From: Chromohalobacter moromii
GTDB lineage: Bacteria > Pseudomonadota > Gammaproteobacteria > Pseudomonadales > Halomonadaceae
Direction: 5' to 3'
NCBI RefSeq assembly: GCF_023091865.1
Contig: NZ_JAHXDI010000001.1
Span: forward strand, 1,364,001-1,428,000
DNA: 64,000 bases
The notes under the pieces were generated by a model, which was not told the DNA's origin, ran no database searches, and was given only the letters and a program-made list of their open reading frames with translations. Shown here in pieces: positions 4,463 to 16,940 of the stretch (position 1 is its first letter; each line of letters begins with the position of its first letter). Made by a program: the position numbers and the translations under genes.

Positions 4463-4504
4463 TAGAGAACGTTTTGTATCAGGAGCCATGATCAAGCGGA
4501 GAGA

Positions 4505-4521
4505 CTTAATCAGCCCTTAAG
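4505..4521 (+). promoter_or_regulatory. PmrA-type box upstream of dgkA
   Basis: CTTAAT-CAGCC-CTTAAG fits the PmrA/BasR consensus HTTAAK-N5-HTTAAK. It ends 51 bp before the dgkA start. A possible -10 element TATCCT lies at 4532-4537, exactly 10 bp after the box. Confidence 0.75.
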
Positions 4522-4572
4522 GTATCGAGTCTATCCTACTAGCTTCTTTGTAAATTTGGACGTGTTGACAAA

Positions 4573-4944
4573 ATGGCTGATCTAGATAAATGGAATGGAA
4601 CAGGTCTCGTACGTTTAAATAAAGCTCTTTTTTGTTCTCTAAAAGGCTTGAGTGCTGCCTGGGTGCATGAGTCGGCATTTCGTCAAGAATTAGTGGTCCT
4701 TGCATTGTTGATGCCAATTCCTACCTTTGGGGATTACTTGCCTATAGAAAAAGCGATGATGGGGGCATCTCTCATCTTGCTATTGGTAGTGGAGCTTATA
4801 AATTCAGCTATTGAAGCTGTTGTGGATCGCGTGGGAACGCAATGGCATACATTAAGCGGCCGAGCCAAGGATCTTGGGTCAGCATCGGTTTTTATGACAT
4901 TTTTGCTTGTTGTTTGGGTCTGGTTTAATATTTTAATGAAGTGA
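4573..4944 (+). CDS. dgkA: Diacylglycerol kinase
   Basis: A 123-residue DgkA, the small trimeric inner-membrane kinase that converts diacylglycerol to phosphatidic acid. The active-site helix ELINSAIEAVVDR and the RAKDLGSASV segment are intact, with three hydrophobic helices (about 34-52, 58-78 and 98-120). It is the first gene of the AT-rich island. EptA, four genes downstream, produces diacylglycerol when it transfers phosphoethanolamine from phosphatidylethanolamine, so DgkA probably recycles that by-product. It has its own PmrA-type box. The ribosome-binding site before ATG 4573 is weak. Confidence 0.93.
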   Translation: MADLDKWNGTGLVRLNKALFCSLKGLSAAWVHESAFRQELVVLALLMPIPTFGDYLPIEKAMMGASLILLLVVELINSAIEAVVDRVGTQWHTLSGRAKDLGSASVFMTFLLVVWVWFNILMK

Positions 4945-4954
4945 TTTCAGTCAT

Positions 4955-5734
4955 CTAGTGGTCGTTTGAAGTGTACCTTGTTACGTCACTTTGAAAGACT
5001 TTAAAGGAGTGAAGCGGCCATACTGTTAAAATGCTTGCAATAAGTATTGCGAAGTAAATGGAAGAGCTTTTATTGGTTTGGTGCTGAGAAAATTGGTGCA
5101 AAAATAGATAGAAAAAAAGGCAAGCCCATCCTGTCCCTAAAAACACCCCGCCGACAATATCAGTTAACCAGTGCGCATTCAGATAAACTCTAGAAAAGCA
5201 TATAAGGAACAGTAATGAAAAGATGGTGAGGCCAGTCAATATTCTGTGTTTAACATTAAAGTGATGAGTAAATAGGAGGAGGATGCACAAGTAGAGCGTT
5301 ATGTTTAATGTGGTGTGACCACTCGGAAAAGAAAAAGTCTCCCAGTTTTCATACAGCCCCACCATTGGGCGACTTTCATGTATTAAAAACTTCAGTAGAG
5401 GAACCGTTAAAGATATGCTGGTCATGGTTAAGGCTAAAAGTATAGCGGGTGCTTTTTCTTTCCTTACGAGCATGGATATTACTATTGCTGAGGATATTAT
5501 GCCCACTACGATGCCATCACCAAGTTCAGTTATGCTTAGCATGAAGTTGAATAGAAAAGAACTCTGGTGCTGTGCAAAGAGGTTGTGTATGGTTCCATTT
5601 ATTCCAGTAAACCAATTAGTAGTTTTAACTATCAATGATAGTATCAAGAAGAGTGAAAAGCATGTTGCTGAAAGTATCAAGAAAGATCTTGGTGATCTTG
5701 ATGAATTGCCAGATACAGCGATTGTCTTTTTCAT
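4955..5734 (-). CDS. PAP2-family lipid phosphatase
   Basis: A 259-residue membrane phosphatase with the three PAP2 signature blocks: KFLIHESRP (C1), PSGHT (C2) and SRVYLNAHWLTDIVGG (C3). About six transmembrane helices are visible. Likely substrates are undecaprenyl pyrophosphate, phosphatidate or a lipid A phosphate; the sequence does not decide which. It is convergent with dgkA (10 bp apart) and has its own promoter region with a PmrA-type box 45 bp upstream. Base composition is clearly AT-rich compared with manC. It is not a close copy of the other PAP2 genes in the window. Confidence 0.85.
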   Translation of the reverse strand: MKKTIAVSGNSSRSPRSFLILSATCFSLFLILSLIVKTTNWFTGINGTIHNLFAQHQSSFLFNFMLSITELGDGIVVGIISSAIVISMLVRKEKAPAILLALTMTSISLTVPLLKFLIHESRPMVGLYENWETFSFPSGHTTLNITLYLCILLLFTHHFNVKHRILTGLTIFSLLFLICFSRVYLNAHWLTDIVGGVFLGTGWACLFFYLFLHQFSQHQTNKSSSIYFAILIASILTVWPLHSFKVFQSDVTRYTSNDH

Positions 5735-5779
5735 TTTAAAGCTCAGGTTGGAGGTGTTAAGGGGTTTTGTTTCTATAAT

Positions 5780-5796
5780 GTTAAGAGAGGCTTAAA
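5780..5796 (-). promoter_or_regulatory. PmrA-type box upstream of the PAP2 gene
   Basis: On the minus strand the sequence is TTTAAG-CCTCT-CTTAAC, one base off the HTTAAK-N5-HTTAAK consensus. It ends 45 bp before the PAP2 start at 5734, the same spacing as the other boxes in this region. Confidence 0.55.
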
Positions 5797-5805
5797 GCCT
5801 CTCTT
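5783..5805. terminator. Hairpin between the arnT-like cassette and the PAP2 gene
   Basis: AAGAGAGGC-TTAAA-GCCTCTCTT is a perfect 9-bp stem with a 5-base loop, 26 bp past the stop of the ArnT-like gene (minus strand). There is no clear T-run on the minus side. The stem also contains the PmrA-type box, so it may act as terminator, operator or both. Confidence 0.5.
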
Positions 5806-5830
5806 TGACGGGATTTTAGGGTGGTGATGA

Positions 5831-7540
5831 CTATTTTGTCGTGGGAGCTTCGTATAGCGGCGCAGATTTTTTATTTCCTGGGCACTGAGAAAAAGCGCTT
5901 CCGGGAAGAAGCCACCAATGATCACTGTTCTGAATACCCAGATCATGCTTTTCGGATTGATCGATACAAGCTTCCCCTTTTGCCTGATCTGCTCGTGTTA
6001 ATATCCAACGCTCATCGGGAGACTGTTTAACCCATGCGTAAGCACGTTGTAATTGTTTTTCTAATGGGGTTTTAAAGCCGAATTGCACGACGGGTTGTTG
6101 TGCTTGTAGCACAAATTCTTCATCGAAATCCGGGAGCGCCAATGAAGCGTTTTTTCCTGTTATGCGCTGAACATTTTGCATCATATCGTGAGGCGACCTG
6201 GCCGTATTCATTAGTACATAGCCCCATGTAGACCATGAAACCCAGAAGGCCAGCATCCATATTACAAATATCAACATTCCACGGTGCGGTTTTAACCAGA
6301 GGATGAGGGGGATAGACAGCGCACCAATCGTCATCCACCAATTCCAAGGCACTACTCCATAGTGCTGCGATAATTCGTTTAGGCTACTGACTCCATAACC
6401 ACCTAAGACTCCTGCAGTTAGTAAAGTGCCTGAAATGGCAATGATAGTAAATGTTGCCAGATAATTGAGACCCTTTTGTTGCAATAGGCCGGGTATGGAC
6501 GGCGCGACCGCCCATATTAACAATGGGATTGTAGGCAATATATAAACGCCTCGTTTGCCTGGCGACAACGAAAAAAACAGAAGGATCAGCAATATTGCGC
6601 TTAAAGGCATCCAAATCTTAGCATCGCGTCTTCTCAATCGACGCTGCCAGTGTTTAATAAGCCATGGGAAGGCCAGTATTAGAGGTAGCCATGCCCAAGG
6701 AATGACACTGGCTAGATAGTAATACCAAGGGTTCAAGTGATGCCATGAATTGGCATATCTTTCGCCCGTCTGTTTGAAAAGGATATTATCCCGATAAGCT
6801 GTGAGACTTGAATCGTCTCCAAATGTGGCGATCAAGACCATGGGCACGACCCACAAGCTAACCGTCAAGATAAGTAATGAAAAACCCTTTATATACTGTT
6901 TCCATGCAGGGTGATGCACTACTCCTTGTTTATAGAATAATATCCAGCCGGGTATTAACGCCAAGGGCAGAAAGCCTACCCCCTTGGTCAATATACCGAT
7001 GCCCATTGCGATCCAACTGACATACCACCAGATATTCTTGGCGTCAATTAATGAATAGCGTAGAAACCCGTAAGCCCCTAACGTAGTAAAAAAAGTGAGA
7101 GACATATCTATTTGTGCCGTCCGAGCTTGAAGAGCAAATTGGAACGTGCTCAACAGGGCAACGCCGGCTAATAGTGCGATGCGTATACCGTAGAGTCTTT
7201 TCGTTAAATCTGCTACTAAAAAGAGAGTTCCGAAAGCAGCAAGTAGAGACGGGAGCATGAATCCCCAACGGACCGAGCCAGTTAGAGCAATACCTATTGC
7301 CATTGCCCACATGAAAATAGGGGGTTTGTCTGGATAAATTTCGCCGGCGCGATGAGGAAACCAAAACTGACCTGTCTTAAGCATTTCAAGCGCATTGAGT
7401 GCAAAGCGTGGTTCATCTGCTGGCCATGGATCACGTAGCCCCAGCCCAATCGCTAAAATTACAAAACTACCAAGAAGAAAAAGGCACCAAAAAAACCGAT
7501 TATGCCGGGCCATCGTCATTGGCAAGGGCAAGAAACGCAT
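5831..7540 (-). CDS. ArnT-like GT39 glycosyltransferase (lipid A aminoarabinose transferase family)
   Basis: A polytopic inner-membrane transferase that moves a sugar from an undecaprenyl phosphate carrier to a periplasmic acceptor, in ArnT's case lipid A phosphate. The first periplasmic loop carries the catalytic-type motif DPWPADEPRFALNAL (Asp-Glu), followed by YPDKPPIFMW and 11-12 hydrophobic helices, then a soluble C-terminal domain. ATG 7540 follows the upstream stop by 4 bp; ATGs at 7579 (35-bp overlap) and 7519 are alternatives. It is the last gene of the GT2-LABN-GT39 cassette. ArnA, ArnB and ArnD are not in the window, so the sugar may not be Ara4N. Confidence 0.82.
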   Translation of the reverse strand: MRFLPLPMTMARHNRFFWCLFLLGSFVILAIGLGLRDPWPADEPRFALNALEMLKTGQFWFPHRAGEIYPDKPPIFMWAMAIGIALTGSVRWGFMLPSLLAAFGTLFLVADLTKRLYGIRIALLAGVALLSTFQFALQARTAQIDMSLTFFTTLGAYGFLRYSLIDAKNIWWYVSWIAMGIGILTKGVGFLPLALIPGWILFYKQGVVHHPAWKQYIKGFSLLILTVSLWVVPMVLIATFGDDSSLTAYRDNILFKQTGERYANSWHHLNPWYYYLASVIPWAWLPLILAFPWLIKHWQRRLRRRDAKIWMPLSAILLILLFFSLSPGKRGVYILPTIPLLIWAVAPSIPGLLQQKGLNYLATFTIIAISGTLLTAGVLGGYGVSSLNELSQHYGVVPWNWWMTIGALSIPLILWLKPHRGMLIFVIWMLAFWVSWSTWGYVLMNTARSPHDMMQNVQRITGKNASLALPDFDEEFVLQAQQPVVQFGFKTPLEKQLQRAYAWVKQSPDERWILTRADQAKGEACIDQSEKHDLGIQNSDHWWLLPGSAFSQCPGNKKSAPLYEAPTTK

Positions 7541-7544
7541 AAAG

Positions 7545-7832
7545 CTATTCACTTTTCGTTGATTTTCGATGTGTTTCATTACGAATTAAGATCATATTAC
7601 GCATGTAGATAAAAAGCCCTGCTCCCTGACCAACGATAAATACGGGATCTTGTCGATAAATTGCATAAGCAAAAAGCGTGGCGCCTCCGCCTAGGCTTAA
7701 TATCCAAAACGCGTTGGGCACGATACTGCGTCGCGCCTTCTCACTTGCAATCCACTGGACCAAGAAACGGGCCGAAAAAAAGCCTTGTCCAAGAAATCCA
7801 ATAATCATCCAGATTAAGTCGGGTTTAAACAT
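7545..7832 (-). CDS. LABN-domain small membrane protein
   Basis: A 95-residue protein matching the lipid A biosynthesis N-terminal (LABN) fold: FLGQGFFSARFLVQWIASE, SIVPNAFWILSLGGG, and a C-terminal GQGAGLFIYMRNM. It has three hydrophobic stretches. Stand-alone LABN proteins are often found next to ArnC-type and ArnT-type glycosyltransferases. A role in presenting or flipping the lipid-linked sugar is plausible but unproven. It overlaps the GT2 gene by 8 bp, so the two are translationally coupled. The original LABN name comes from the N-terminus of some lipid-A-disaccharide synthases; no catalytic domain follows here. Confidence 0.82.
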   Translation of the reverse strand: MFKPDLIWMIIGFLGQGFFSARFLVQWIASEKARRSIVPNAFWILSLGGGATLFAYAIYRQDPVFIVGQGAGLFIYMRNMILIRNETHRKSTKSE

Positions 7833-8583
7833 GTTTGCCGGAGTCGTTGTCAGTAGGGTATGAATCCACCAGCGGCATTAAATTTGCCGGTAGTCGTGAT
7901 CGGCGGCGCAACCACATAACACCGAGAATATCTATAATCCCTGCCCAAAGTCTGTCATGTAAACCATAATGTGAGTGTCCGTTTTGACGTTCTCGGTGGT
8001 TTACATTCATAGAAATACAGGTCCCTCCCTGCGCTTGAATAAGCGCAGGTATAAAGCGGTGCATATGGTTAAAATATGGCAGTTTAAGAAACGCATTTTT
8101 GTTTATTAATTTAAGGCCACACCCGGTGTCGGGTGTTGAATCATTCAGTAGTTTGCTCCTGATACGGTTGGCGATTTTTGAAGAAAACCTCTTATGCCAA
8201 ATATCACGTCTTTTATTGCGGTGCCCAGCAATTACCGTGACTGTGTTAGTGCTCGCATATTGATAAAGGATAGGTATGTCTGCCGGGTCGTTTTGTCCAT
8301 CGGCATCGATAGTCGCCAACCAATCCCCTTCCGCTAGCCTTGCCGCTTGCCAGATAGACGTGCTTTGTCCGGAGCTTTTGTGGTGGCGGTATGCGCGTAG
8401 CCGTGGATTTTTCCTGGCTTCATTTGCAAGCCAATTTTGGGTGTCATCTATAGAGCCATCATCGATAACGATGATTTCGTGTTCAATTGAAACAAGTGCC
8501 TGATCAATTTCATCAAGCAACGTTGGTAAGTTTTCAACTTCATCTTTTGCAGGAATGATGACTGATAGTGTTTTTGGTCGCAT
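7825..8583 (-). CDS. ArnC/DPM1-like GT2 glycosyltransferase
   Basis: A 252-residue family 2 glycosyltransferase of the polyprenyl-phosphate sugar synthase type. The GT-A motifs are SVIIPAKDEVENL, EIIVIDDGSIDDT and WLATIDADGQNDP (DxD), followed by the DTGCGLKL and HYGLHDRLW segments. It lacks the C-terminal pair of transmembrane helices present in ArnC itself, as in the shorter DPM1-like enzymes. It probably transfers a nucleotide sugar to undecaprenyl phosphate on the cytoplasmic face. It is first in the GT2-LABN-GT39 operon, with a PmrA-type box and a perfect TATAAT -10 upstream. Confidence 0.85.
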   Translation of the reverse strand: MRPKTLSVIIPAKDEVENLPTLLDEIDQALVSIEHEIIVIDDGSIDDTQNWLANEARKNPRLRAYRHHKSSGQSTSIWQAARLAEGDWLATIDADGQNDPADIPILYQYASTNTVTVIAGHRNKRRDIWHKRFSSKIANRIRSKLLNDSTPDTGCGLKLINKNAFLKLPYFNHMHRFIPALIQAQGGTCISMNVNHRERQNGHSHYGLHDRLWAGIIDILGVMWLRRRSRLPANLMPLVDSYPTDNDSGKHV

Positions 8584-8615
8584 GATTGCATATATAAAGT
8601 AGTGGCTTTGTCTTG

Positions 8616-8621
8616 ATTATA
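8616..8621 (-). promoter_or_regulatory. -10 element of the GT2-LABN-GT39 operon
   Basis: TATAAT reads on the minus strand exactly 10 bp downstream of the PmrA-type box at 8632-8648. This is the same box-to-hexamer distance as for the dgkA candidate promoter. Confidence 0.6.
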
Positions 8622-8631
8622 AATATTTTTT

Positions 8632-8648
8632 CTTAAGGTATTCTTAAG
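8632..8648 (-). promoter_or_regulatory. PmrA-type box for the GT2-LABN-GT39 operon
   Basis: CTTAAG-GTATT-CTTAAG on the plus strand, and equally a box on the minus strand because each half is palindromic. It is a perfect match to the PmrA consensus, 48 bp from the GT2 start. Confidence 0.85.
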
Positions 8649-8673
8649 CCTTTTGATGAATTTATTTGTTGCG

Positions 8674-8690
8674 CGTAAGCATGACTTAAG
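8674..8690 (+). promoter_or_regulatory. PmrA-type box for the PAP2-eptA operon
   Basis: CGTAAG-CATGA-CTTAAG, one base off consensus in the first half. It lies 52 bp before the PAP2 ATG at 8743 (46 bp before GTG 8737). Together with the box at 8632 it gives each divergent operon its own site. Confidence 0.7.
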
Positions 8691-8742
8691 AAGTGGGGTG
8701 ACATCATGAAGTATCCTTGTTATATATAAAGTTGATGTGCAC

Positions 8743-9483
8743 ATGCTCCCCAGAACTTTTTTAAAATACAGTGAATCACCTTGGGTGCCCTTGTTGAAGA
8801 TGTGGGTTTTATTCACCCTGTTAATTATTGCAATAGCTTATTTTGAATTAGATTTTAGGACGGCTGATGCCGTTTACACGATGGAGGGAGGGGATTGGAC
8901 GTTATCGGATTTCTGGCTGACTAAGTATGTTCTGCATGATATAGGGAAACGCTTTAGTATATCTATAGGTGTAGTGGTCTTGGTGGCAATTGTTGCAACC
9001 TTCTTTGTGGGGGCAATGAAAAGTCTGCGTCGTCCTTTGGTGTATCTCTTTGTATCAGTTGCACTTTCCGCATTAATAGTTTCTTCTATAAAGAACAGCA
9101 TTAATGTGGCATGTCCTTGGGATTTAGTACGCTACGGAGGGAATATTCCTTACGTTGGTTTTTTCCAAGAGTGGCCTTCTAAGTTTCCAGATATTGCATG
9201 CTTTCCTGCCGGGCATGCTAGTGCGGGTTATGCCTGGATTGCCTTGTACTTCTTTTTCGACTACCTCTTTGTCTCTTCTAAGTGGAGACGTTTAGGTGCA
9301 GGGGGGGCTATGTCTATGGGCCTTCTTTTTGGTATTGATCAGCAAGTTCGTGGGGCTCATTTTTTGTCGCATGATTTGTGGACATTGATGATTAGTTTTA
9401 GTGTTTCCCGAATATTGGCGTATCTGTTTTTTGGTTTAATTAAAAATCGAAAAGTCGCTGTTGGTGATCTTGTTAATTCTTGA
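8743..9483 (+). CDS. PAP2-family phosphatase paired with eptA
   Basis: A membrane phosphatase of 246 residues with about six transmembrane helices. PAP2 motifs are VSSIKNSINVACPWDL (C1 with a Cys-Pro-Trp replacing the usual Arg-Pro), FPAGHASAGYAW (C2) and RGAHFLSHDLW (C3). This variant is typical of PAP2 proteins encoded beside phosphoethanolamine transferases, such as the LpxT/LpxE-like group. It may dephosphorylate or re-phosphorylate lipid A or undecaprenyl pyrophosphate. ATG 8743 or GTG 8737 could be the start; neither has a strong Shine-Dalgarno sequence. It is followed directly by eptA, with a 14-bp gap to the preferred eptA start. Confidence 0.82.
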   Translation: MLPRTFLKYSESPWVPLLKMWVLFTLLIIAIAYFELDFRTADAVYTMEGGDWTLSDFWLTKYVLHDIGKRFSISIGVVVLVAIVATFFVGAMKSLRRPLVYLFVSVALSALIVSSIKNSINVACPWDLVRYGGNIPYVGFFQEWPSKFPDIACFPAGHASAGYAWIALYFFFDYLFVSSKWRRLGAGGAMSMGLLFGIDQQVRGAHFLSHDLWTLMISFSVSRILAYLFFGLIKNRKVAVGDLVNS

Positions 9484-9496
9484 GGTGAGGTCGTTT

Positions 9497-11149
9497 ATGT
9501 ATAATTTATTTTCAAGGCTGAGCTTCCTGCGTCCGGTTTTGACGACGGACTTCCTGACCTTTTTGGTGAGCCTTGGTGCTACATTGTTTTATAATACGCC
9601 TTTTTGGGATGAGGTTTTTGATTATATCTCTCCAGTAGGAATAATGGACTGGTTGCTTTTGCTCGAGTATGGGGTTGTTCTTACTTTTTTGCAGTTTTTT
9701 GTATTTGTCTTTTTAGTGAATCGTTGGCTGGCGAAACCTTTTCTTGTCGCCATAATATGTTTGGCAGCGGCCGTTAACTTTTATACAAGCCGTTATGGCG
9801 TATACTTCAATACCGATATGGTGAACAACGTTCTGCAGACGGATACCAAGGAAGCTGGTGAGCTGTTTACTTGGGGGTTCCTTGGATACATGATTGTTTA
9901 TGCCGCTATTCCTTCACTGTTTGTTATCTGGGTGCGTATAAAAAGAGAGAGCCTTTTGAGGTCTGTTTTGAGACGCGCAGTGGTGGTGCTAGCAAGCACC
10001 CTGGTATTGAGCGGCTTCATTTTACTGACATTTCAAAGCGTGTCGGCGTTGATGAGGACGCATCATGAGCTGCGTTTCTTGGTCACTCCGGGTAACGCGA
10101 TAGTCTCTGCTGTTCAAGCTTTAGCTCCTGCACAAGCTCCTCTGCCTGATAAGAAAATTCCGCTTGAGAGCGATGCGAAACTGGCAGACGCGGCATCGAA
10201 TGGCAATAGCAAGCCTAAGCTGCTCGTCATTGTGGTCGGGGAGACGATGCGGGCTGCCAATTGGGGTCTCAATGGCTATGAGAGGCAGACAACACCGAAG
10301 TTGAATGATCGCAACGTGATCAATTTTCCTCATGTAACATCTTGTGGCACAAGCACGGCAGTTTCTTTACCTTGCATGTTCTCTCCGCTTGGTCACGATG
10401 ACTATGACGAGCGCTATATTAAAAGTCATGAGTCACTTCTTGATGTGTTAAAGCATGCCGGTATCGATGTGGAATGGATTGATAACCAATCGGGATGCAA
10501 AGGAGTCTGCGAAGGCGTTAAAAATGAGACACTGTCCCAGCAGGGTTTTCCTGGTCTTTGTGCATCGGGCCGCTGCTATGATGAGGCTCTTGCCGAGCGT
10601 TTAAAAGATGAGTTGAAGAAAACTTCGGGTTCTAACGATGACAAAGTCATTGTCTTGCACCAGTTAGGCAATCATGGCCCTAGTTATTACCAGCGTTATC
10701 CTGAGGCTTTTAGCAGGTTTGTCCCGGTATGTAAAACTGCTGATTTAAACAAGTGCCAAAAAAATGAGATTGTAAATGCATATGACAATGGCGTTCTTTA
10801 CACCGATAGTGTCTTAGATAGTCTGATTGCCGCCTTAAAATATCAGTCTCAATATTCGGCTGCCATGTTGTATGTGGCTGATCACGGTGAGTCGTTAGGT
10901 GAAAATGGTGTTTATTTACATGGATTGCCTTACTCAATCGCACCGAAAGAACAAACGCATGTACCCATGACGTGGTGGTTGGATAAGGGTTTTATTGGCT
11001 CCACGGGACTGGATGATGATTGTTTATATAAAAATGCAGACGGTAAATATAGTCATGCCAATTTGTTTTCAAGCATCCTGGGGTTGATGCAAGTAGCAAC
11101 ATCGGTCTATAAGCCCGATCAAGACATAACATCGGCGTGTCGTACATGA
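9497..11149 (+). CDS. eptA: Phosphoethanolamine transferase (lipid A)
   Basis: A 550-residue EptA/MCR-type enzyme that adds phosphoethanolamine to lipid A and lowers affinity for cationic peptides. Five N-terminal transmembrane helices (to about residue 190) precede a periplasmic sulfatase-fold domain. Key motifs are VVGETMRAANWGLNGYERQ, SCGTSTAVSLPCMF with the Thr nucleophile, HQLGNHGPSYY and VADHGESLGENGVYLHG with the zinc ligands. ATG 9497 is preferred over 9461 because TGAGGTGAGG sits 6 bp before it. Cysteine pairs expected for periplasmic disulfides are present. It shares a PmrA-type box with the upstream PAP2 gene. Confidence 0.93.
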   Translation: MYNLFSRLSFLRPVLTTDFLTFLVSLGATLFYNTPFWDEVFDYISPVGIMDWLLLLEYGVVLTFLQFFVFVFLVNRWLAKPFLVAIICLAAAVNFYTSRYGVYFNTDMVNNVLQTDTKEAGELFTWGFLGYMIVYAAIPSLFVIWVRIKRESLLRSVLRRAVVVLASTLVLSGFILLTFQSVSALMRTHHELRFLVTPGNAIVSAVQALAPAQAPLPDKKIPLESDAKLADAASNGNSKPKLLVIVVGETMRAANWGLNGYERQTTPKLNDRNVINFPHVTSCGTSTAVSLPCMFSPLGHDDYDERYIKSHESLLDVLKHAGIDVEWIDNQSGCKGVCEGVKNETLSQQGFPGLCASGRCYDEALAERLKDELKKTSGSNDDKVIVLHQLGNHGPSYYQRYPEAFSRFVPVCKTADLNKCQKNEIVNAYDNGVLYTDSVLDSLIAALKYQSQYSAAMLYVADHGESLGENGVYLHGLPYSIAPKEQTHVPMTWWLDKGFIGSTGLDDDCLYKNADGKYSHANLFSSILGLMQVATSVYKPDQDITSACRT

Positions 11150-11190
11150 CTTTAAAATCTTACCTACAGTGGCACCGAGCTGGGGAGTGT

Positions 11191-11427
11191 ATGATGGTTT
11201 ATAGATTTCAGTATGATGTGTTAGCAAGGCCTTGTCGGATTGTAAGAAACTTAGCCAAGGCCGTCCGTAGTATAGCTGGCGAGGCTCTCTTTAGATGTTT
11301 CTTTTTCGAGGCCTGTATTTTTACTTTATACATTTTTATTGGGACACTCGTTGTGCCTTTTGCACTGGCGCTTGGTTTTTATAAGATCGTCAGGTATGTT
11401 CTTGCGAAGGTCGGCGGAGGGGCGTGA
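11191..11427 (+). CDS. Small membrane protein of unknown function, downstream of eptA
   Basis: Not recognised. The frame is open from 11137, overlapping the eptA end, but the better start is ATG 11191, which has a GGGGAGTG ribosome-binding site and gives 78 residues. The N-terminal half is basic (RIVRNLAKAVRS). The C-terminal half is hydrophobic (IFTLYIFIGTLVVPFALALGF), compatible with one or two membrane helices and a cytoplasmic basic end. It is the last gene before a strong terminator and belongs to the PAP2-eptA transcription unit, so it may be an accessory of EptA or of the membrane stress response. The codon composition matches the AT-rich island. Confidence 0.55.
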   Translation: MMVYRFQYDVLARPCRIVRNLAKAVRSIAGEALFRCFFFEACIFTLYIFIGTLVVPFALALGFYKIVRYVLAKVGGGA

Positions 11428-11461
11428 ATTGAAAGAGCCGCCTTGAGGCGGCTCTTTCAAT
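11426..11461. terminator. Bidirectional rho-independent terminator
   Basis: AATTGAAAGAGCCGCCTT followed by its exact mirror gives an 18-bp perfect palindrome with T-rich ends on both strands. It serves the PAP2-eptA operon and the convergent cytochrome b561 gene. Confidence 0.88.
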
Positions 11462-12009
11462 TATTCTTGGCGTTTTTTTGTTTTTTTACCAGTAAGCATT
11501 GCCTTGGCAAGATTTTGTTTTGTTAACTTGCTTGAAATTGTTACACCAACAACATGTAGTATTGCTGCAATAAGAAGGGCGTTTCCTAATATTGGGTGTA
11601 CAGTTTCTATCAGTGTGTTTTCTTGAAAGGTGTGCGTTGTTAGAAGCCAGCCCAATATTGCTTGCAGGCCAAGTCCTCCTAATAGTAAAAAGACCATGGC
11701 GCTGCCGGCGGGATTGTGGCCGTCATAATGTCGTTCATGCCCATGTCGCATGTTTCGTAAATGTTGAAATATTTCTTTTGGTGAGTAAGTGAAATTGATG
11801 AACCGTGCGTGTCGAGTCCCTATTATTCCCCATATGATTCGTAATACTATTGCTACGCCTACTGTATACCCTGCCCATTCATGTAGTGTCTGCCATTGGC
11901 CAGAGCTCACCCAGGCTGTCATGAATGCTATAGCCAATGTCCAGTGAAGTATCCTTACTATTGGGTCCCAGATCTTTAACTTTTGTGGATGTTCTTCTCT
12001 ATGCGCCAT
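11461..12009 (-). CDS. Cytochrome b561-type membrane protein
   Basis: A 182-residue, four-helix di-haem cytochrome b of the bacterial b561/Ni-hydrogenase b family. Candidate haem-ligand histidines are in IVRILHWTLA, LHEWAGYTVG, HNPAGSAMVF and the C-terminal VHPILGNALLIAAILHVVG. It would shuttle electrons across the inner membrane from quinol to an unidentified partner. ATG 12009 (MAHREEHPQKLKIWDP) is chosen because GGAG lies 7 bp upstream; the frame is open to 12045. Genes of this type frequently accompany PmrAB-linked eptA loci. A lone CTTAAT half-site lies about 53 bp upstream on the minus strand. Confidence 0.83.
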   Translation of the reverse strand: MAHREEHPQKLKIWDPIVRILHWTLAIAFMTAWVSSGQWQTLHEWAGYTVGVAIVLRIIWGIIGTRHARFINFTYSPKEIFQHLRNMRHGHERHYDGHNPAGSAMVFLLLGGLGLQAILGWLLTTHTFQENTLIETVHPILGNALLIAAILHVVGVTISSKLTKQNLAKAMLTGKKTKKRQE

Positions 12010-12227
12010 CAGGTTTCTCCATTCTTGGTATGAAGCAAAAGCCAATAGGTTTGGTCTATTGATTAAGCAGAAGCTATTGGAGGTTATATGGTAAGAAAAT
12101 ATTCTGATGCCTTACTTAAAGAGCGCGGTGGTTCTATGTTCAGGTTGGATAGCGTGTTATCTCGGTTCGAGCCCCCCTCTTGAACAGGCAGTCATGGCGC
12201 TTAAGTGATGTGATGATGGCTATATAT
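12010..12227. other. Non-coding gap at the right edge of the AT-rich island
   Basis: No convincing gene. It contains the promoter region of the cytochrome b561 gene with one CTTAAT half-site (minus strand, 12062-12067). Base composition moves from AT-rich to GC-rich near 12150-12230. No transposase, integrase or direct repeat matching the left edge was seen. Confidence 0.5.
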
Positions 12228-12614
12228 TCACATGAAAAGCCTGACCAAGAGCGCGGCACAAGCGACCCAGGTGGCAATGATGACACCAGCCGCCAGGCGA
12301 CTGACTGGTCTAGCGATTGCTTTGTCGGCTGCTTTCCTGTGCTCTTCCATTACTCTGGAGGGGATGAGTCGGACGACTATCAGGATCCCGAGGGGCACGA
12401 TCACCAGATCGTCCAGATAGCCAAGCACTGGGATGAAATCCGGGATCAAGTCGATGGGTGACACCGCGTACGCAGTGACAACCAGCGCTAGAATTTTAAC
12501 GACGCACGGTGTGCGCGGGTCGTGCGCGGCAAGCCAGATCGCATGTACGTCCCGCTTGAGTGCGCGCGCCCATTGCTGGGCGCTCAGCAATAGCTTTGTT
12601 GTTATAAAGACCAT
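12228..12614 (-). CDS. DUF1232 (YkvA-like) membrane protein
   Basis: A 128-residue protein with the DUF1232 core KILALVVTAYAVSPIDLIPDFIPVLGYLDDLVIVP, in which the SPIDLIPDFIP block is diagnostic. One or two more hydrophobic helices follow (VIIATWVACAALLVR). Its function is unknown. It starts immediately after the stop of the MFS gene (ATG 12614, with GTG 12617 possible), so it is translationally coupled to that transporter and may assist it or share its stress signal. Composition is GC-rich, unlike the neighbouring island. Confidence 0.83.
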   Translation of the reverse strand: MVFITTKLLLSAQQWARALKRDVHAIWLAAHDPRTPCVVKILALVVTAYAVSPIDLIPDFIPVLGYLDDLVIVPLGILIVVRLIPSRVMEEHRKAADKAIARPVSRLAAGVIIATWVACAALLVRLFM

Positions 12615-12617
12615 CAC

Positions 12618-13991
12618 TCATCTAGGCCATTGCGGGTGATGATGATCGATCACGAAGGCATGACGATGTCGAGCTCTTGGGTGATGATGAGAGTGGCGAT
12701 GCGGTTCAGGTCCCTCCCAGCCCTCATGTTCATGCTGGTGGTGGTCGTCATGGTAATGCAGGTGGGAGTGCTCCACAGGAGCATGGCCATGCTCGAGCGC
12801 CACCGGGTCCCGTGATGGCCAGACACGGATCGCGAGTGTCGTAGACACCAGCGCGATCGCCCCTAGCAGGGCGAAGGTCTCGATCAGGCCCGCCTGCGAC
12901 CCGAACCAGCCGGCCAGCGGATAGGAGACCAGCCAGCAGCCATGCGATAGCGAGAACTGCGCGGCGAACAACGCCGGACGGTCCTCGGGCTGGCACGATT
13001 GCTTGAGTAGGTGCCCAGTAGGCGTCATGACCAGCGAGGCGCCGGCACCCAGCAAGAACCACAGCCCTAGTAGCCCCACGAACCCGGGTGCCAGCAGGCC
13101 AAGAAAGAGGCTTAGTGTCATCAGAACGCCGCCCGCGAGCATGAGCGGACGTTCTCGCGTGCGCTCCAGCACTTTCGGCAGCAGCAGGGCCACCAGCATC
13201 GAGCCGCCTCCGACTGCCGCGAAAGCCATGGCCACTGCCTGCGCGCCCAGGCCCAGGGAAGAACGCACGTAGACCACAGTGTTGACGATCTGCATGGCCC
13301 CGGCCGCCGAGACCACCATGTTCAGGGCCAGCAGTCCGCGCAGTCGCGGCGTCTTCAGGTAGATCCGCATGCCGTGGGAGACCTTGCGCCACACGCTTGG
13401 TACCTCGTCCTCCGTTGCCTTGGGCGACGGCAACATCACCGAGACCACTAGGCCGGCCGAGACCAGGAAGGCCAGGCCATTGAGCAGGAACAATACATCG
13501 AAGCTCATCACCATCAATAGCGCCGCGGCGGCCATGGGACTGAGCAGGTTCTCGAGGTCATAGGCGAGCCGCGACAGCGACAGCGCGCGGGTGTACTGCC
13601 CCTCGTCCTGGAGCAGGTCCGGAATCGTTGCCTGGAAGACCGGGGTGAAGCCCGCCGAGGCGGCGTTGAGCAGGAAGATCAGCACATAGACCTGCCAGAT
13701 TTCGGTGACGAAGGGCAGCGCGCAGACCACGGACGCCCGCAGCAGATCCAGGCTGACCAGCAGAGTGCGGCGCGGCAGACGCGAGGCGTAGGCCCCGACC
13801 ACCGGTGCGATGCCCACATAGGCCAACATCTTGATCGCTAGTGCCGTGCCTAGCACGACTCCTGCCTGCCCGGACGCTAGGTCATGGGCCAGCAATGCCA
13901 GGGCGACCGTCGTTAGCCCGGTGCCGGCGAGGGCGGTGACCTGGGCCAGGAACAAATGGCGATAGCGACGGTGACTCAGCACTTCGAGCAT
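12618..13991 (-). CDS. MFS transporter with histidine-rich C-terminal tail (NreB-like, putative metal efflux)
   Basis: A 457-residue 12-helix major facilitator protein: FLAQVTALAGTGLTTVALALL at the N-terminus, TRERPLMLAGGVL between halves, and GLWFLLGAGASLVMTPTGHLL later. The last 60 residues hold about 20 histidines (clusters such as HSHLHYHDDHHQHEHE and PHRHSHHHPR). Such tails occur in NreB-type nickel and related metal exporters, where they bind the ion in the cytoplasm. Metal efflux is therefore likely, but the ion is unknown. AAGGAGAG precedes ATG 13991. It lies between the EptA island and the two-component genes on the same strand, with no PmrA-type box of its own. Confidence 0.82.
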   Translation of the reverse strand: MLEVLSHRRYRHLFLAQVTALAGTGLTTVALALLAHDLASGQAGVVLGTALAIKMLAYVGIAPVVGAYASRLPRRTLLVSLDLLRASVVCALPFVTEIWQVYVLIFLLNAASAGFTPVFQATIPDLLQDEGQYTRALSLSRLAYDLENLLSPMAAAALLMVMSFDVLFLLNGLAFLVSAGLVVSVMLPSPKATEDEVPSVWRKVSHGMRIYLKTPRLRGLLALNMVVSAAGAMQIVNTVVYVRSSLGLGAQAVAMAFAAVGGGSMLVALLLPKVLERTRERPLMLAGGVLMTLSLFLGLLAPGFVGLLGLWFLLGAGASLVMTPTGHLLKQSCQPEDRPALFAAQFSLSHGCWLVSYPLAGWFGSQAGLIETFALLGAIALVSTTLAIRVWPSRDPVALEHGHAPVEHSHLHYHDDHHQHEHEGWEGPEPHRHSHHHPRARHRHAFVIDHHHPQWPR

Positions 13992-14145
13992 GCGACTCTC
14001 CTTGCGGCGTGGCGGTCGGTTACAGGCGGCATGTGTAGTAAAAAGTCAGGGGGATGTGCTGTTGCTTGTCTTGGTAAGACCTTGTGGTGTTCAAATCAAT
14101 GGAAGATGTAGTACATAAGCCTAGCCTTGACGAGCCTGATGCAAC

Positions 14146-15549
14146 TTATTGTGCCTGCCAGGTGATCGTGGCCTCCAACCCATGTTCAGGACGGTTGCGC
14201 AGTTGGAGTGTCGCCTGCTGACGCTGAGCCAGTTCGACGACGATGGAGAGTCCCAGCCCGCTGCCGGTGGTGCGTTGGTCTGAGGCGCGACGGAAACGCT
14301 CGGTCACCTTCTCGAGCAGGTCTTCGGGGATGCCGGGGCCGCTGTCACGGACGCGGATTTGTGCGCCCCCTTGCGTGGTCTCGCCGAGCTCGACCTCTAC
14401 ATGGCCGCCTTCCGGGGTGTAACGCAGGGCGTTGTCGAGCAGGTTGCGAAACAGGATGCCGACTTCGGTCTCATCGGCATGGACGCGCAATTGTTTGAGA
14501 CCTTCGAGCGTCAATTGCTGTTGGCGCTCATGAGCGAGGGGCCACAAGTCGGCCATGAGTTCGATGACGATGGGGTAGAGGTCGATCGGAGCGGTGTGAC
14601 TATCCGGTGTGCGATCCAGCCGCGCCAGGACTAGCAGCTGTTCGACGACGCGTTGCAGGCGTTCGACGCCGGTATAAGCCTTTTGCAGGGATGCTGTCTC
14701 CCCAGCCTTGACGTTGTCCAGGTGGATGCGCAACGCGGCCAGCGGGGTGCGCAGCTCATGCGCGGCGTCGGCGGTGAACCGGCGTTCGCGTTCCAGGGTT
14801 TCGCCCAGCCGGTCGATGAAGTCGTTCAGCGACTGGTGTAATCCCTCCAACTCGTGGGGAACGTCGAGCTCGATATGCCGAAGGTCGCGGGCATGGCGTC
14901 CTTGCACCTGGTCAGATAGACGCCGTATAGGAGTCAGGCCACGGCGAATGATGCGGTTCATCAACCACAACATGAGCGGCAATAGGATCAGCATCGGAAT
15001 GAGATTGTTCCAGGTGATGCGCTCGACTATTTCACGCTGGAAATTGCTGCGTTGGCCCATGCTGATCCACAGGTCGTGGCGTTCGTCGAACATGCTGAAG
15101 ACGCGCCAGCGATGGCCGGCATAGTCGACCCAGCGAAAGCCTTCTTCATCGGGGGCAGGGAAAGATCCATCTTGTGTCCATTTTCCCTGGAGTAGGCGTG
15201 GTGTTTTGTCGGACTTCCATAGGCCCAGCGCAAGTTTGCGTTCTTCCTCGTGATAAAGCTTGGTCGGCGTGGTGTCATCGCCATCGAGTGCGACGGGCTG
15301 GCCATCGTGATAGAGGCGCGCCGGGTAATCGGGGATACTGAGCTGGTTGGCCAGTCGTTTGAACGCGTCATCGCTGGCGTTTTCCGGTAGTTGGCCGGCG
15401 ACAATGCGGCTGTGGAGGCTGAGTTGGGTGTCGAGCACTTCTTCCAGCTCGTGATCGGTGATCAAATACGAGGCGAGCATCGCCACACCACCGGACACGA
15501 CGAGTACTAGCGTCAGCGTGCGGAGCAGGTAATAGCGAATGGACGTCAT
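14146..15549 (-). CDS. Sensor histidine kinase, PmrB/QseC-like
   Basis: A 467-residue membrane kinase. Layout: TM1 at about 9-30, periplasmic sensor at about 31-180, TM2 at about 181-199, HAMP at about 200-250, then the DHp helix with phospho-accepting His264 in DAAHELRTPLAALR. The ATP-binding domain shows NLLDNALRYTPEGG, VRDSGPGIPE and GSGLGLSIV. The start is ATG 15549, which overlaps the response-regulator stop as ATGA; the longer frame to 15786 is a shadow. The periplasmic part is rich in acidic residues (DDAF, DGDDTT, DEEG), as expected for sensing cations or peptides. It is probably the sensor for the PmrA-type box regulon. Confidence 0.88.
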   Translation of the reverse strand: MTSIRYYLLRTLTLVLVVSGGVAMLASYLITDHELEEVLDTQLSLHSRIVAGQLPENASDDAFKRLANQLSIPDYPARLYHDGQPVALDGDDTTPTKLYHEEERKLALGLWKSDKTPRLLQGKWTQDGSFPAPDEEGFRWVDYAGHRWRVFSMFDERHDLWISMGQRSNFQREIVERITWNNLIPMLILLPLMLWLMNRIIRRGLTPIRRLSDQVQGRHARDLRHIELDVPHELEGLHQSLNDFIDRLGETLERERRFTADAAHELRTPLAALRIHLDNVKAGETASLQKAYTGVERLQRVVEQLLVLARLDRTPDSHTAPIDLYPIVIELMADLWPLAHERQQQLTLEGLKQLRVHADETEVGILFRNLLDNALRYTPEGGHVEVELGETTQGGAQIRVRDSGPGIPEDLLEKVTERFRRASDQRTTGSGLGLSIVVELAQRQQATLQLRNRPEHGLEATITWQAQ

Positions 15550-16208
15550 ACTGCGCGACGATCCAGGCGATAACCGATACCACGGACGGTCATGATGAGC
15601 GACTTGCCGAACTTCTTGCGCAGATGATGAACGTGGACCTCCACGGCATTCGAGGCGACTTCCTCTCCCCAGCCATAGAGCAGGCTTTCCAGCCGAGGGC
15701 GCGAGAGCACCTTGTCGGGGTGGCGTGCCAGTTCGAGCAATAGGGCGTATTCGCGGCGCCCCAGCGCGATGTCTTGTCCTTGCCAACTGACGCTGTGACT
15801 GGCTTCGTCGATGCTCAAGGCGCCGAGTGTCAGGGTGCGTGACGCGCGGCCCTCGGCGCGCCGCGTGATGACGCGCAGGCGCGCCAGCAACTCCTGTAGA
15901 TTGAAGGGCTTGAGTACATAATCGTCAGCGCCGGCATCGAGTCCACGAATGCGTTCTTCGACGGCGTCGCGTGCGGTGAGGATGAGTATTGGCAGTCCGG
16001 AAGCTTGGCGTAGATGCTGGAGCACTGCCATGCCATCCATGTCGGGCAGCCCCAGATCGAGAATCATGGCGCTGAACGCCTCGTTTTGGGCAGCTTCGAT
16101 AGCATGATGGCCTTCGGTGAACCAATCCACTGTATAGGCTTCGCGGGTGAGTGCGGTCTTGATGCCATCGCCCAGAAGCGGATCGTCTTCGACCAAGAGT
16201 ATACGCAT
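15546..16208 (-). CDS. OmpR-family response regulator, PmrA/QseB-like
   Basis: A 220-residue regulator. The receiver domain has acidic residues D8-D9 and phospho-acceptor D51 (AMILDLGLPDMDG), with Thr and Lys at LILTARD and YVLKPFNLQELLARL. The winged-helix DNA-binding domain covers about 125-218 (LSRPRLESLLYG, VEVHVHHLRKKFG). ATG 16208 has a GAGGAGG ribosome-binding site; the frame opens further upstream without one. A perfect PmrA-type box lies 44 bp before the start, implying autoregulation. The same box type at five other promoters nearby makes it the likely regulator of the island. Confidence 0.9.
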   Translation of the reverse strand: MRILLVEDDPLLGDGIKTALTREAYTVDWFTEGHHAIEAAQNEAFSAMILDLGLPDMDGMAVLQHLRQASGLPILILTARDAVEERIRGLDAGADDYVLKPFNLQELLARLRVITRRAEGRASRTLTLGALSIDEASHSVSWQGQDIALGRREYALLLELARHPDKVLSRPRLESLLYGWGEEVASNAVEVHVHHLRKKFGKSLIMTVRGIGYRLDRRAV

Positions 16209-16252
16209 GGGGCCTCCTCGGTATTGGCGCCAGCGTAGCATGATGCGTAAAG

Positions 16253-16269
16253 CTTAAGTCTTTCTTAAG
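16253..16269 (-). promoter_or_regulatory. PmrA-type box upstream of the response regulator
   Basis: CTTAAG-TCTTT-CTTAAG on the plus strand is a perfect consensus box 44 bp upstream of the regulator start. Its second half contains the TAA stop codon (16267-16265) of the upstream SDR-like gene. Confidence 0.85.
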
Positions 16270-16870
16270 GCGGGGTGAAACCATCGGCCGCTGCACGCCG
16301 ACGCTGATAGGAATGAATGTGGCCTCGCCATTGGGCTGCAAGGGAAGGATGATTGTGTCGCTCGATGGCCTGTATCACGCGCCGTGCGGCGTGGTTTAGC
16401 GCCGTCAAGTGATGGACATGGGGAATGTCCTCGGGCGCTAGGTGCGAATAGCGGGCGCGCTTCGGGGCGGGGTCGACGCTAAGTACGAGCCTGTCTGGCC
16501 GCGACGATTCCCGCACCCGCGAGACACATTGGCGCCGTGACCGACTTTCGTTTGCCGTGACGAGGCCGATATCGACATGCAGTGCACCCTCGACGCTCAT
16601 AGCGTCATTCGTGTCGGTCGATCGCACATGAATCAGCATCTCGATACCGGCGCGCGCCACGGTCTCACGGCAGCATGCTTGTTGTGTCTGACATGTGGCC
16701 GCCATGGGCTGGACGCGCGTCGGCATGCCGCGCACCTGTCGCTCGAGTGCGGCCTGGTTCGCGCCCAACGTCCATAACAAGGCACCCCGCGGTAGCAACC
16801 AATCGATGAGGGTTTCCGCGAAAGGTGTATCAGCGCCCGTGATGAGAATGCGACGTTCCGACCAATCCAT
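16265..16870 (-). CDS. Degenerate SDR-like (Rossmann-fold) protein
   Basis: A 201-residue protein whose start resembles a short-chain dehydrogenase: RRILITGADTPFAETLIDWLL, GALLWTLGANQAALERQV. The canonical glycine pattern TGxxxGIG is replaced by TGADTPFAE. No catalytic Tyr-x3-Lys is visible where NHAARRVIQAIE stands, and the second half is short. Enzymatic activity is doubtful; a binding or sensory role, or decay, are the options. It precedes the two-component operon on the same strand and has a PmrA-type box 53 bp before its start, so it looks like a regulon member of unknown function. Confidence 0.6.
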   Translation of the reverse strand: MDWSERRILITGADTPFAETLIDWLLPRGALLWTLGANQAALERQVRGMPTRVQPMAATCQTQQACCRETVARAGIEMLIHVRSTDTNDAMSVEGALHVDIGLVTANESRSRRQCVSRVRESSRPDRLVLSVDPAPKRARYSHLAPEDIPHVHHLTALNHAARRVIQAIERHNHPSLAAQWRGHIHSYQRRRAAADGFTPP

Positions 16871-16923
16871 GAGTTACCTGCCGATGGCGGAGATGAAAGA
16901 ATCGCAACGCTCGCACGGTAACG

Positions 16924-16940
16924 CTTAAGAGATGCTTACG
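16924..16940 (-). promoter_or_regulatory. PmrA-type box upstream of the SDR-like gene
   Basis: On the plus strand CTTAAG-AGATG-CTTACG; on the minus strand CGTAAG-CATCT-CTTAAG, the same variant as the box at 8674. It lies 53 bp from the start of the SDR-like gene. Confidence 0.65.

Follow-up and report, generated by a model that had tools for sequence, protein, structure and literature searches.

We examined a 64,000-nucleotide stretch of a 3.47-Mb Chromohalobacter assembly (C1:1364001–1428000; hereafter the window, whose own coordinates are used unless C1 or C2 is named) in which a 17-bp box, CTTAAG-N5-CTTAAG, recurs in front of a two-component system (TCS) and a set of predicted lipid A modification genes. 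Relatives of this genome include C. beijerinckii, C. israelensis and C. canadensis. The TCS consists of an OmpR-family response regulator of the QseB/PmrA group (15546–16208, minus strand; 220 amino acids, aa) and a QseC-like sensor histidine kinase with two membrane spans round a large periplasmic domain (14146–15549, minus; 467 aa). Mismatches were counted against the pattern above. Because the half-site is its own reverse complement, a perfect box reads as a direct repeat and equally as an inverted one, and is itself without direction.

Six boxes with 0–2 mismatches precede genes here, all at the positions listed in a sequence-only reading of this DNA; as that reading had it, two are perfect and the distance from box end to start codon is nearly constant (44–53 bp for all six). 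Specifically, the box CTTAATCAGCCCTTAAG (4505–4521, plus; 1 mismatch, 51 bp to the start) lies before dgkA, a prokaryotic diacylglycerol kinase gene (4573–4944, plus; 123 aa; PF01219, E 1.5e-28), and is the same in loci L017, L019 and L020 and genomes G002 and G009. The weakest of the six, TTTAAGCCTCTCTTAAC in gene orientation (5780–5796, minus; 2 mismatches, 45 bp), precedes PAP2 phosphatase a (4955–5734, minus; 259 aa; PF01569) and is conserved in L016, L017, L019 and L020. A perfect box (8632–8648, minus; 48 bp), which is also perfect in six genomes of the genus (G000–G004 and G009), stands before the operon of a GT2/ArnC-like polyprenyl-phosphate sugar transferase (7825–8583; 252 aa; PF00535), a small LAB_N membrane protein (7545–7832; 95 aa; PF07578, E 3.8e-32) and a GT39/ArnT-like lipid glycosyltransferase (5831–7579; 582 aa; PF13231/PF02366), all on the minus strand. 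The box CGTAAGCATGACTTAAG (8674–8690, plus; 1 mismatch; 52 bp, or 46 bp with the GTG at 8737) precedes PAP2 phosphatase b (8737–9483, plus; 248 aa) and an eptA-like phosphoethanolamine–lipid A transferase gene (9497–11149, plus; 550 aa), whose product carries EptA_B_N and sulfatase domains (PF08019 and PF00884) and scores 587 bits with NF028537, above the cut-off of 500. The second perfect box (16253–16269, minus; 44 bp) precedes the response regulator and overlaps the 3' end of an SDR-like reading frame (16265–16870, minus; 201 aa), which is itself preceded by CGTAAGCATCTCTTAAG (16924–16940, minus; 1 mismatch, 53 bp), a box conserved in G002, G003, G004 and G009 and changed in its spacer in G007 and G008. 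That frame scores 22 bits with NF006565 (cut-off 238) and had no match in a Pfam search; it is conserved in the genus at 74–100% identity.

A −10-like hexamer lies exactly 10 bp past the box only at the GT2 and dgkA promoters, where it reads TATAAT and TATCCT as previously described; the other four window promoters, including that of the SDR-like frame, have no good hexamer 10 bp downstream. The stricter form (C/T)TTAA(G/T)-N5-(C/T)TTAA(G/T) fits three of the six boxes, the rest being off by one or two bases, and the strict HTTAAK pattern, found in only five places genome-wide, likewise misses three of the six.

Most of the target genes occupy an AT-rich island (4500–12000, dgkA to eptA, between manC and the kinase) with 40–46% GC versus about 60% around it, where CTTAAG-like words might simply be common by chance. 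The excess of sites at 3 mismatches, moreover, is slight (17 vs 10.2 expected), a weak signal too loose to inform. Against a chance origin, 1000 dinucleotide shuffles in 750-bp blocks, which keep local composition, gave 0.021 expected sites with ≤1 mismatch versus 5 observed, a number reached in none of the 1000, and 0.37 expected with ≤2 mismatches versus 6 observed (reached in 1 of 1000). Two of the boxes also lie in the 60% GC part, and the box is conserved family-wide (see below). We therefore regard chance as refuted for the strong boxes and as an extremely improbable account of the set, although it is possible for the box at 5780 taken alone.

The whole genome holds only six sites with ≤1 mismatch, five of them in the window and one before an unlinked gene, uppP. 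All six are promoter-placed: one precedes the SDR-like gene, and the other five precede the regulator or lipid genes. The motif is not equally common away from promoters, an outcome that would have told against the earlier proposal of a regulon. Elsewhere, the surroundings of eight 2-mismatch sites were read (L007–L011, L013–L015), and each of these sites falls within a long open frame. Among exact CTTAAG pairs 0–25 bp apart in ten Chromohalobacter genomes, 13 of 19 have the 5-bp spacer, which, as related genomes are not independent, counts as support and carries no probability. This spacer histogram takes the place of a reversed-pattern control of GAATTC type, on which we do not rely because that word may differ in frequency. 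The boxes are thus genuine and specific sequence features, placed at promoters and conserved.

The sixth strong box (C1:366355–366371 in G000; L003:1501–1517) was missed in the sequence-only reading as it lies outside the window. It ends 74 bp before the ATG of a gene that, from its protein sequence and what is established for the family, we take to be uppP/bacA, and it has TAATAA 10 bp downstream; the frame before it is presumably tsaB. The box is found with 0–2 mismatches in 8 of the 10 Chromohalobacter genomes, its second half-site and −10 region intact, and is decayed in G004 and G005; none was found in the homologs read outside the genus. The first half of the box shares bases with the upstream gene's stop codon, which by itself would preserve the TAA there, and the entire short spacer between the genes is well conserved. 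On balance we favor it as a good candidate regulon site, short of certainty.

Across the Halomonadaceae, the box accompanies the regulator. We read the neighborhoods of regulator homologs from about 50 genomes, took those of at least 66% identity as orthologs (n = 43), and looked for boxes with ≤1 mismatch up to 150 bp before each start, with random 150-bp windows as the control. Such a box stands before 30 of the 43 regulator orthologs, mostly at 41–57 bp, versus 0.8% of random windows, and before 7 of the 19 GT2 homologs, at 48–74 bp. It was absent before all of the 53 kinase, 13 eptA, 18 LAB_N and 9 GT39 genes, as expected because these are operon-internal. Regulator homologs below 63% identity have no box directly upstream; some have exact boxes a few kilobases off. 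Many genera have the GT2-LAB_N-GT39 cassette close to the regulator and others have DgkA-PAP2b-EptA there, these last three being consecutive in several relatives. Family-wide boxes and shared neighborhoods thus indicate a long-standing association of the TCS with this gene set in Halomonadaceae.

Boxes were also seen in other settings. The neighbors of exact boxes in genus g7 (L164, L165, L169, L170, L177, L180) are a DUF3413 protein, CitMHS-type transporters, CBS-domain proteins and a Gly_transf_sug glycosyltransferase, and some of these boxes adjoin a TCS that belongs to the same group but is more distant. In L086 and L087 (genera g15 and g13) a distant homolog of the regulator has overlapping or doubled boxes at about 2 kb. 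G008 carries a second copy of the regulator–kinase pair on a different contig, and this copy, too, has a box (L042).

Natural losses point the same way as the family-wide conservation: in three species, decay of the eptA island goes with decay of the TCS. In G005, G006 and G007, none of which came up in the search for close EptA relatives, manC adjoins the TCS region and the island is absent there. The TCS is deleted except for the kinase tail in G006, and in G007 receiver domain and kinase region are fused by a deletion that disrupts the two alike (loci L039 and L040 for these two genomes); G005 keeps the TCS, with the regulator box degraded to 2 mismatches. As for how the island arose, its GC contrast suggests gain by transfer next to the TCS. 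A plasmid search placed the closest response-regulator homologs only on Halomonas plasmids.

The conserved autoregulatory box and the joint decay uphold the earlier proposal that the neighboring TCS is the obvious owner of the boxes. It could instead be that they are read mainly by another QseB/PmrA-like regulator, such as the paralog at C2:576266 (47% identity, with a similar recognition helix), and that the neighboring regulator merely cross-talks, as documented for QseBC and PmrAB in E. coli (PMC10729948). However, the locus of that paralog has no box at up to 3 mismatches, and it is with orthologs of the neighboring regulator that the box travels family-wide and with the TCS that it decays. 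We consider this alternative improbable.

Which kind of regulator this is deserves more care, as the boxes had been called PmrA-type. The box fits the published PmrA consensus (PMC10729948), the targets overlap (eptA, dgkA, PAP2), the kinase has one ELEE motif right after its first membrane span, and the NCBIfam PmrA model scores almost as high on the regulator as that for QseB (227.4 bits, cut-off 330, vs 230.8 bits, cut-off 345; both below). A true PmrA ortholog, running a plain PmrAB regulon that senses iron, acid or polymyxin as in enterics, is thus a possibility, yet the comparisons lean the other way. With E. coli proteins as the only named references, the regulator is 50.9% identical to QseB and 42.3% to BasR (46.8% vs 36.5% over the DNA-binding half), and its recognition-helix stretch, SNAVEVHVHHLR, is identical to that of QseB. 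Of the residues with which Klebsiella PmrA contacts bases (Asn188, Asn196 and Arg210; PMC4660055), Asn188 and Arg210 are kept and Asn196 is replaced by His, as in QseB. In the tree the regulator clade groups with QseB rather than BasR at 93/81, which is below starred support and with long branches. The kinase scores 238 bits with the QseC model versus 208 with PmrB, both below cut-off, and its top solved relative is QseC. Its spans are centered at 21 and 192, compared with 22 and 173 in QseC and 23 and 75 in BasS, so it lacks the short periplasmic loop of PmrB type; the 2CSK_N sensor domain matches only at E 0.0065, below cut-off. The genome also has no ArnA ortholog, the best match being 26% over the formyltransferase part.

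The box itself does not separate the two regulators, since it lies upstream of both E. coli eptA (CTTAAGGTTGGCTTAAT, at 46 bp) and ygiW/qseB (CTTAAGAAGTTGTTAAG, 49 bp before ygiW). Taken together, the protein comparisons suggest that the regulator is nearer QseB than PmrA/BasR, which makes the name PmrA doubtful and a true PmrA ortholog rather unlikely; proteins called PmrA outside the enterics may be of this type too. We searched the literature on PmrA in Halomonas and on LAB_N cassettes and found nothing useful.

The target families suggest what such a regulator would control. EptA uses phosphatidylethanolamine as its phosphoethanolamine donor, and the diacylglycerol that remains is recycled by DgkA (PMC7559476). 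The two PAP2 proteins can be assigned by distant similarity only: the nearest model for PAP2a is the SepP undecaprenyl-diphosphatase (NF047884; 42 bits, cut-off 250), and those for PAP2b are a PAP2 lipid A phosphatase and the PAP2 near mcr-1 (NF028538, 84 bits; NF028536, 69 bits; both below cut-off). ArnC and ArnT are only remotely related to GT2 and GT39 (97 bits, cut-off 529, and 69 bits, cut-off 567), and this distance, with the missing ArnA ortholog, implies that the cassette probably handles a sugar other than aminoarabinose.

The sequence-only reading had counted these targets as including genes not usually placed in a PmrA regulon, which is only partly right because dgkA and ybjG are known PmrAB targets. 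A passage in PMC8138132, citing Wahl 2011, gives dgkA as BasRS-controlled in E. coli, and ybjG, encoding a PAP2-type undecaprenyl-pyrophosphate phosphatase, is PmrAB-activated, with bacA, lpxT and pgpB listed as not (PMC7559476). We found no close box before E. coli MG1655 dgkA or bacA (best 3 mismatches at 203 bp and 5 mismatches, respectively). The less expected members that stand are uppP and a GT2-LAB_N-GT39 cassette that occurs here in the absence of arnA.

With good confidence, we interpret the boxes as predicted sites of the neighboring regulator, through which it would activate both its own operon and a program of lipid A modification. Most likely, one sensor–regulator pair switches on genes for outer-membrane lipid remodeling and by-product recycling via the common box. 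Box positions, specificity, conservation and gene families are observed, and predicted steps would join them as follows. On a signal, the kinase would phosphorylate the regulator, which would bind as a head-to-tail dimer to a pair of half-sites at a distance of about 11 bp, immediately before the −10 element, and help RNA polymerase start. EptA would then add phosphoethanolamine to lipid A, with DgkA recycling the diacylglycerol left behind; the GT2-LAB_N-GT39 proteins would load a sugar onto, and transfer it from, an undecaprenyl-type carrier; and PAP2a, PAP2b and the unlinked UppP may regenerate the carrier or trim phosphates.

The sign of regulation bears on this scheme, as a box in or beside the −35 region, with palindromic half-sites that have no direction, would also suit a repressor that switches the set off. 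We think repression unlikely, as −10 hexamers that vary or are poor are in keeping with promoters that depend on an activator and the placement is the same as at the activated E. coli eptA promoter. Several observations do weigh against activation of the whole set by the neighboring regulator: 13 of the 43 regulator orthologs lack a box of ≤1 mismatch in the 150 bp upstream, PAP2a is preceded by a box with 2 mismatches, the box of the SDR-like gene has no −10 hexamer, and the QseB-like paralog has a similar recognition helix. The uppP box, in addition, is genus-limited and does not track the TCS: it is gone from G004, where the TCS is intact, and persists with 2 mismatches in the two genomes that have lost the TCS, G006 and G007.

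While binding, sign and signal are predicted, a PmrA-like regulon content under a QseB/PmrA-group regulator is real, specific and conserved here. It amounts to a compact regulon in a halophile, with seven promoters sharing one box and lipid A modification paired with recycling of its by-products, and is small enough for complete testing. That the regulator is nearer QseB suggests that this box and regulon function can be carried by a regulator of that kind, and the box and the gene name should therefore not be equated in regulon annotation. A tentative extension, which we hold to be possible rather than probable, is that a QseBC-lineage TCS and not PmrAB is the master of lipid A remodeling in Halomonadaceae, with uppP added in Chromohalobacter, tying decoration to the supply of the cell-wall carrier lipid.

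Among known systems, PmrAB/BasSR of enterics (eptA-basRS, arnBCADTEF, dgkA, ybjG) shares the 17-bp tandem box, its distance at eptA (46 bp), the eptA, dgkA and PAP2 phosphatase targets and an autoregulated regulator. In contrast to that system, the Chromohalobacter regulator and kinase are nearer QseBC, a GT2-LAB_N-GT39 cassette is present and arnA is not, uppP is added, and the targets lie mostly in one locus under separate promoters. QseBC (PreAB) is the closest by identity, recognition helix and kinase topology, though below curated model cut-offs, and also has a box in its own promoter region (ygiW/qseB in E. coli); in Glaesserella the reported QseB site is CTTAAN4CTTAG (PMC10714720). Unlike the locus described here, qseBC of E. 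coli has ygiW and mqsRA as neighbors and no lipid A genes beside it. The mcr-pap2 and mcr-dgkA cassettes likewise combine an EptA-type transferase with PAP2 and/or DgkA helpers (PMC10285318, PMC7559476), whereas the Chromohalobacter set is chromosomal and has separate promoters with a common box beside a TCS. These comparisons portray a variant of the known circuit for antimicrobial-peptide resistance, not a system of a new kind.

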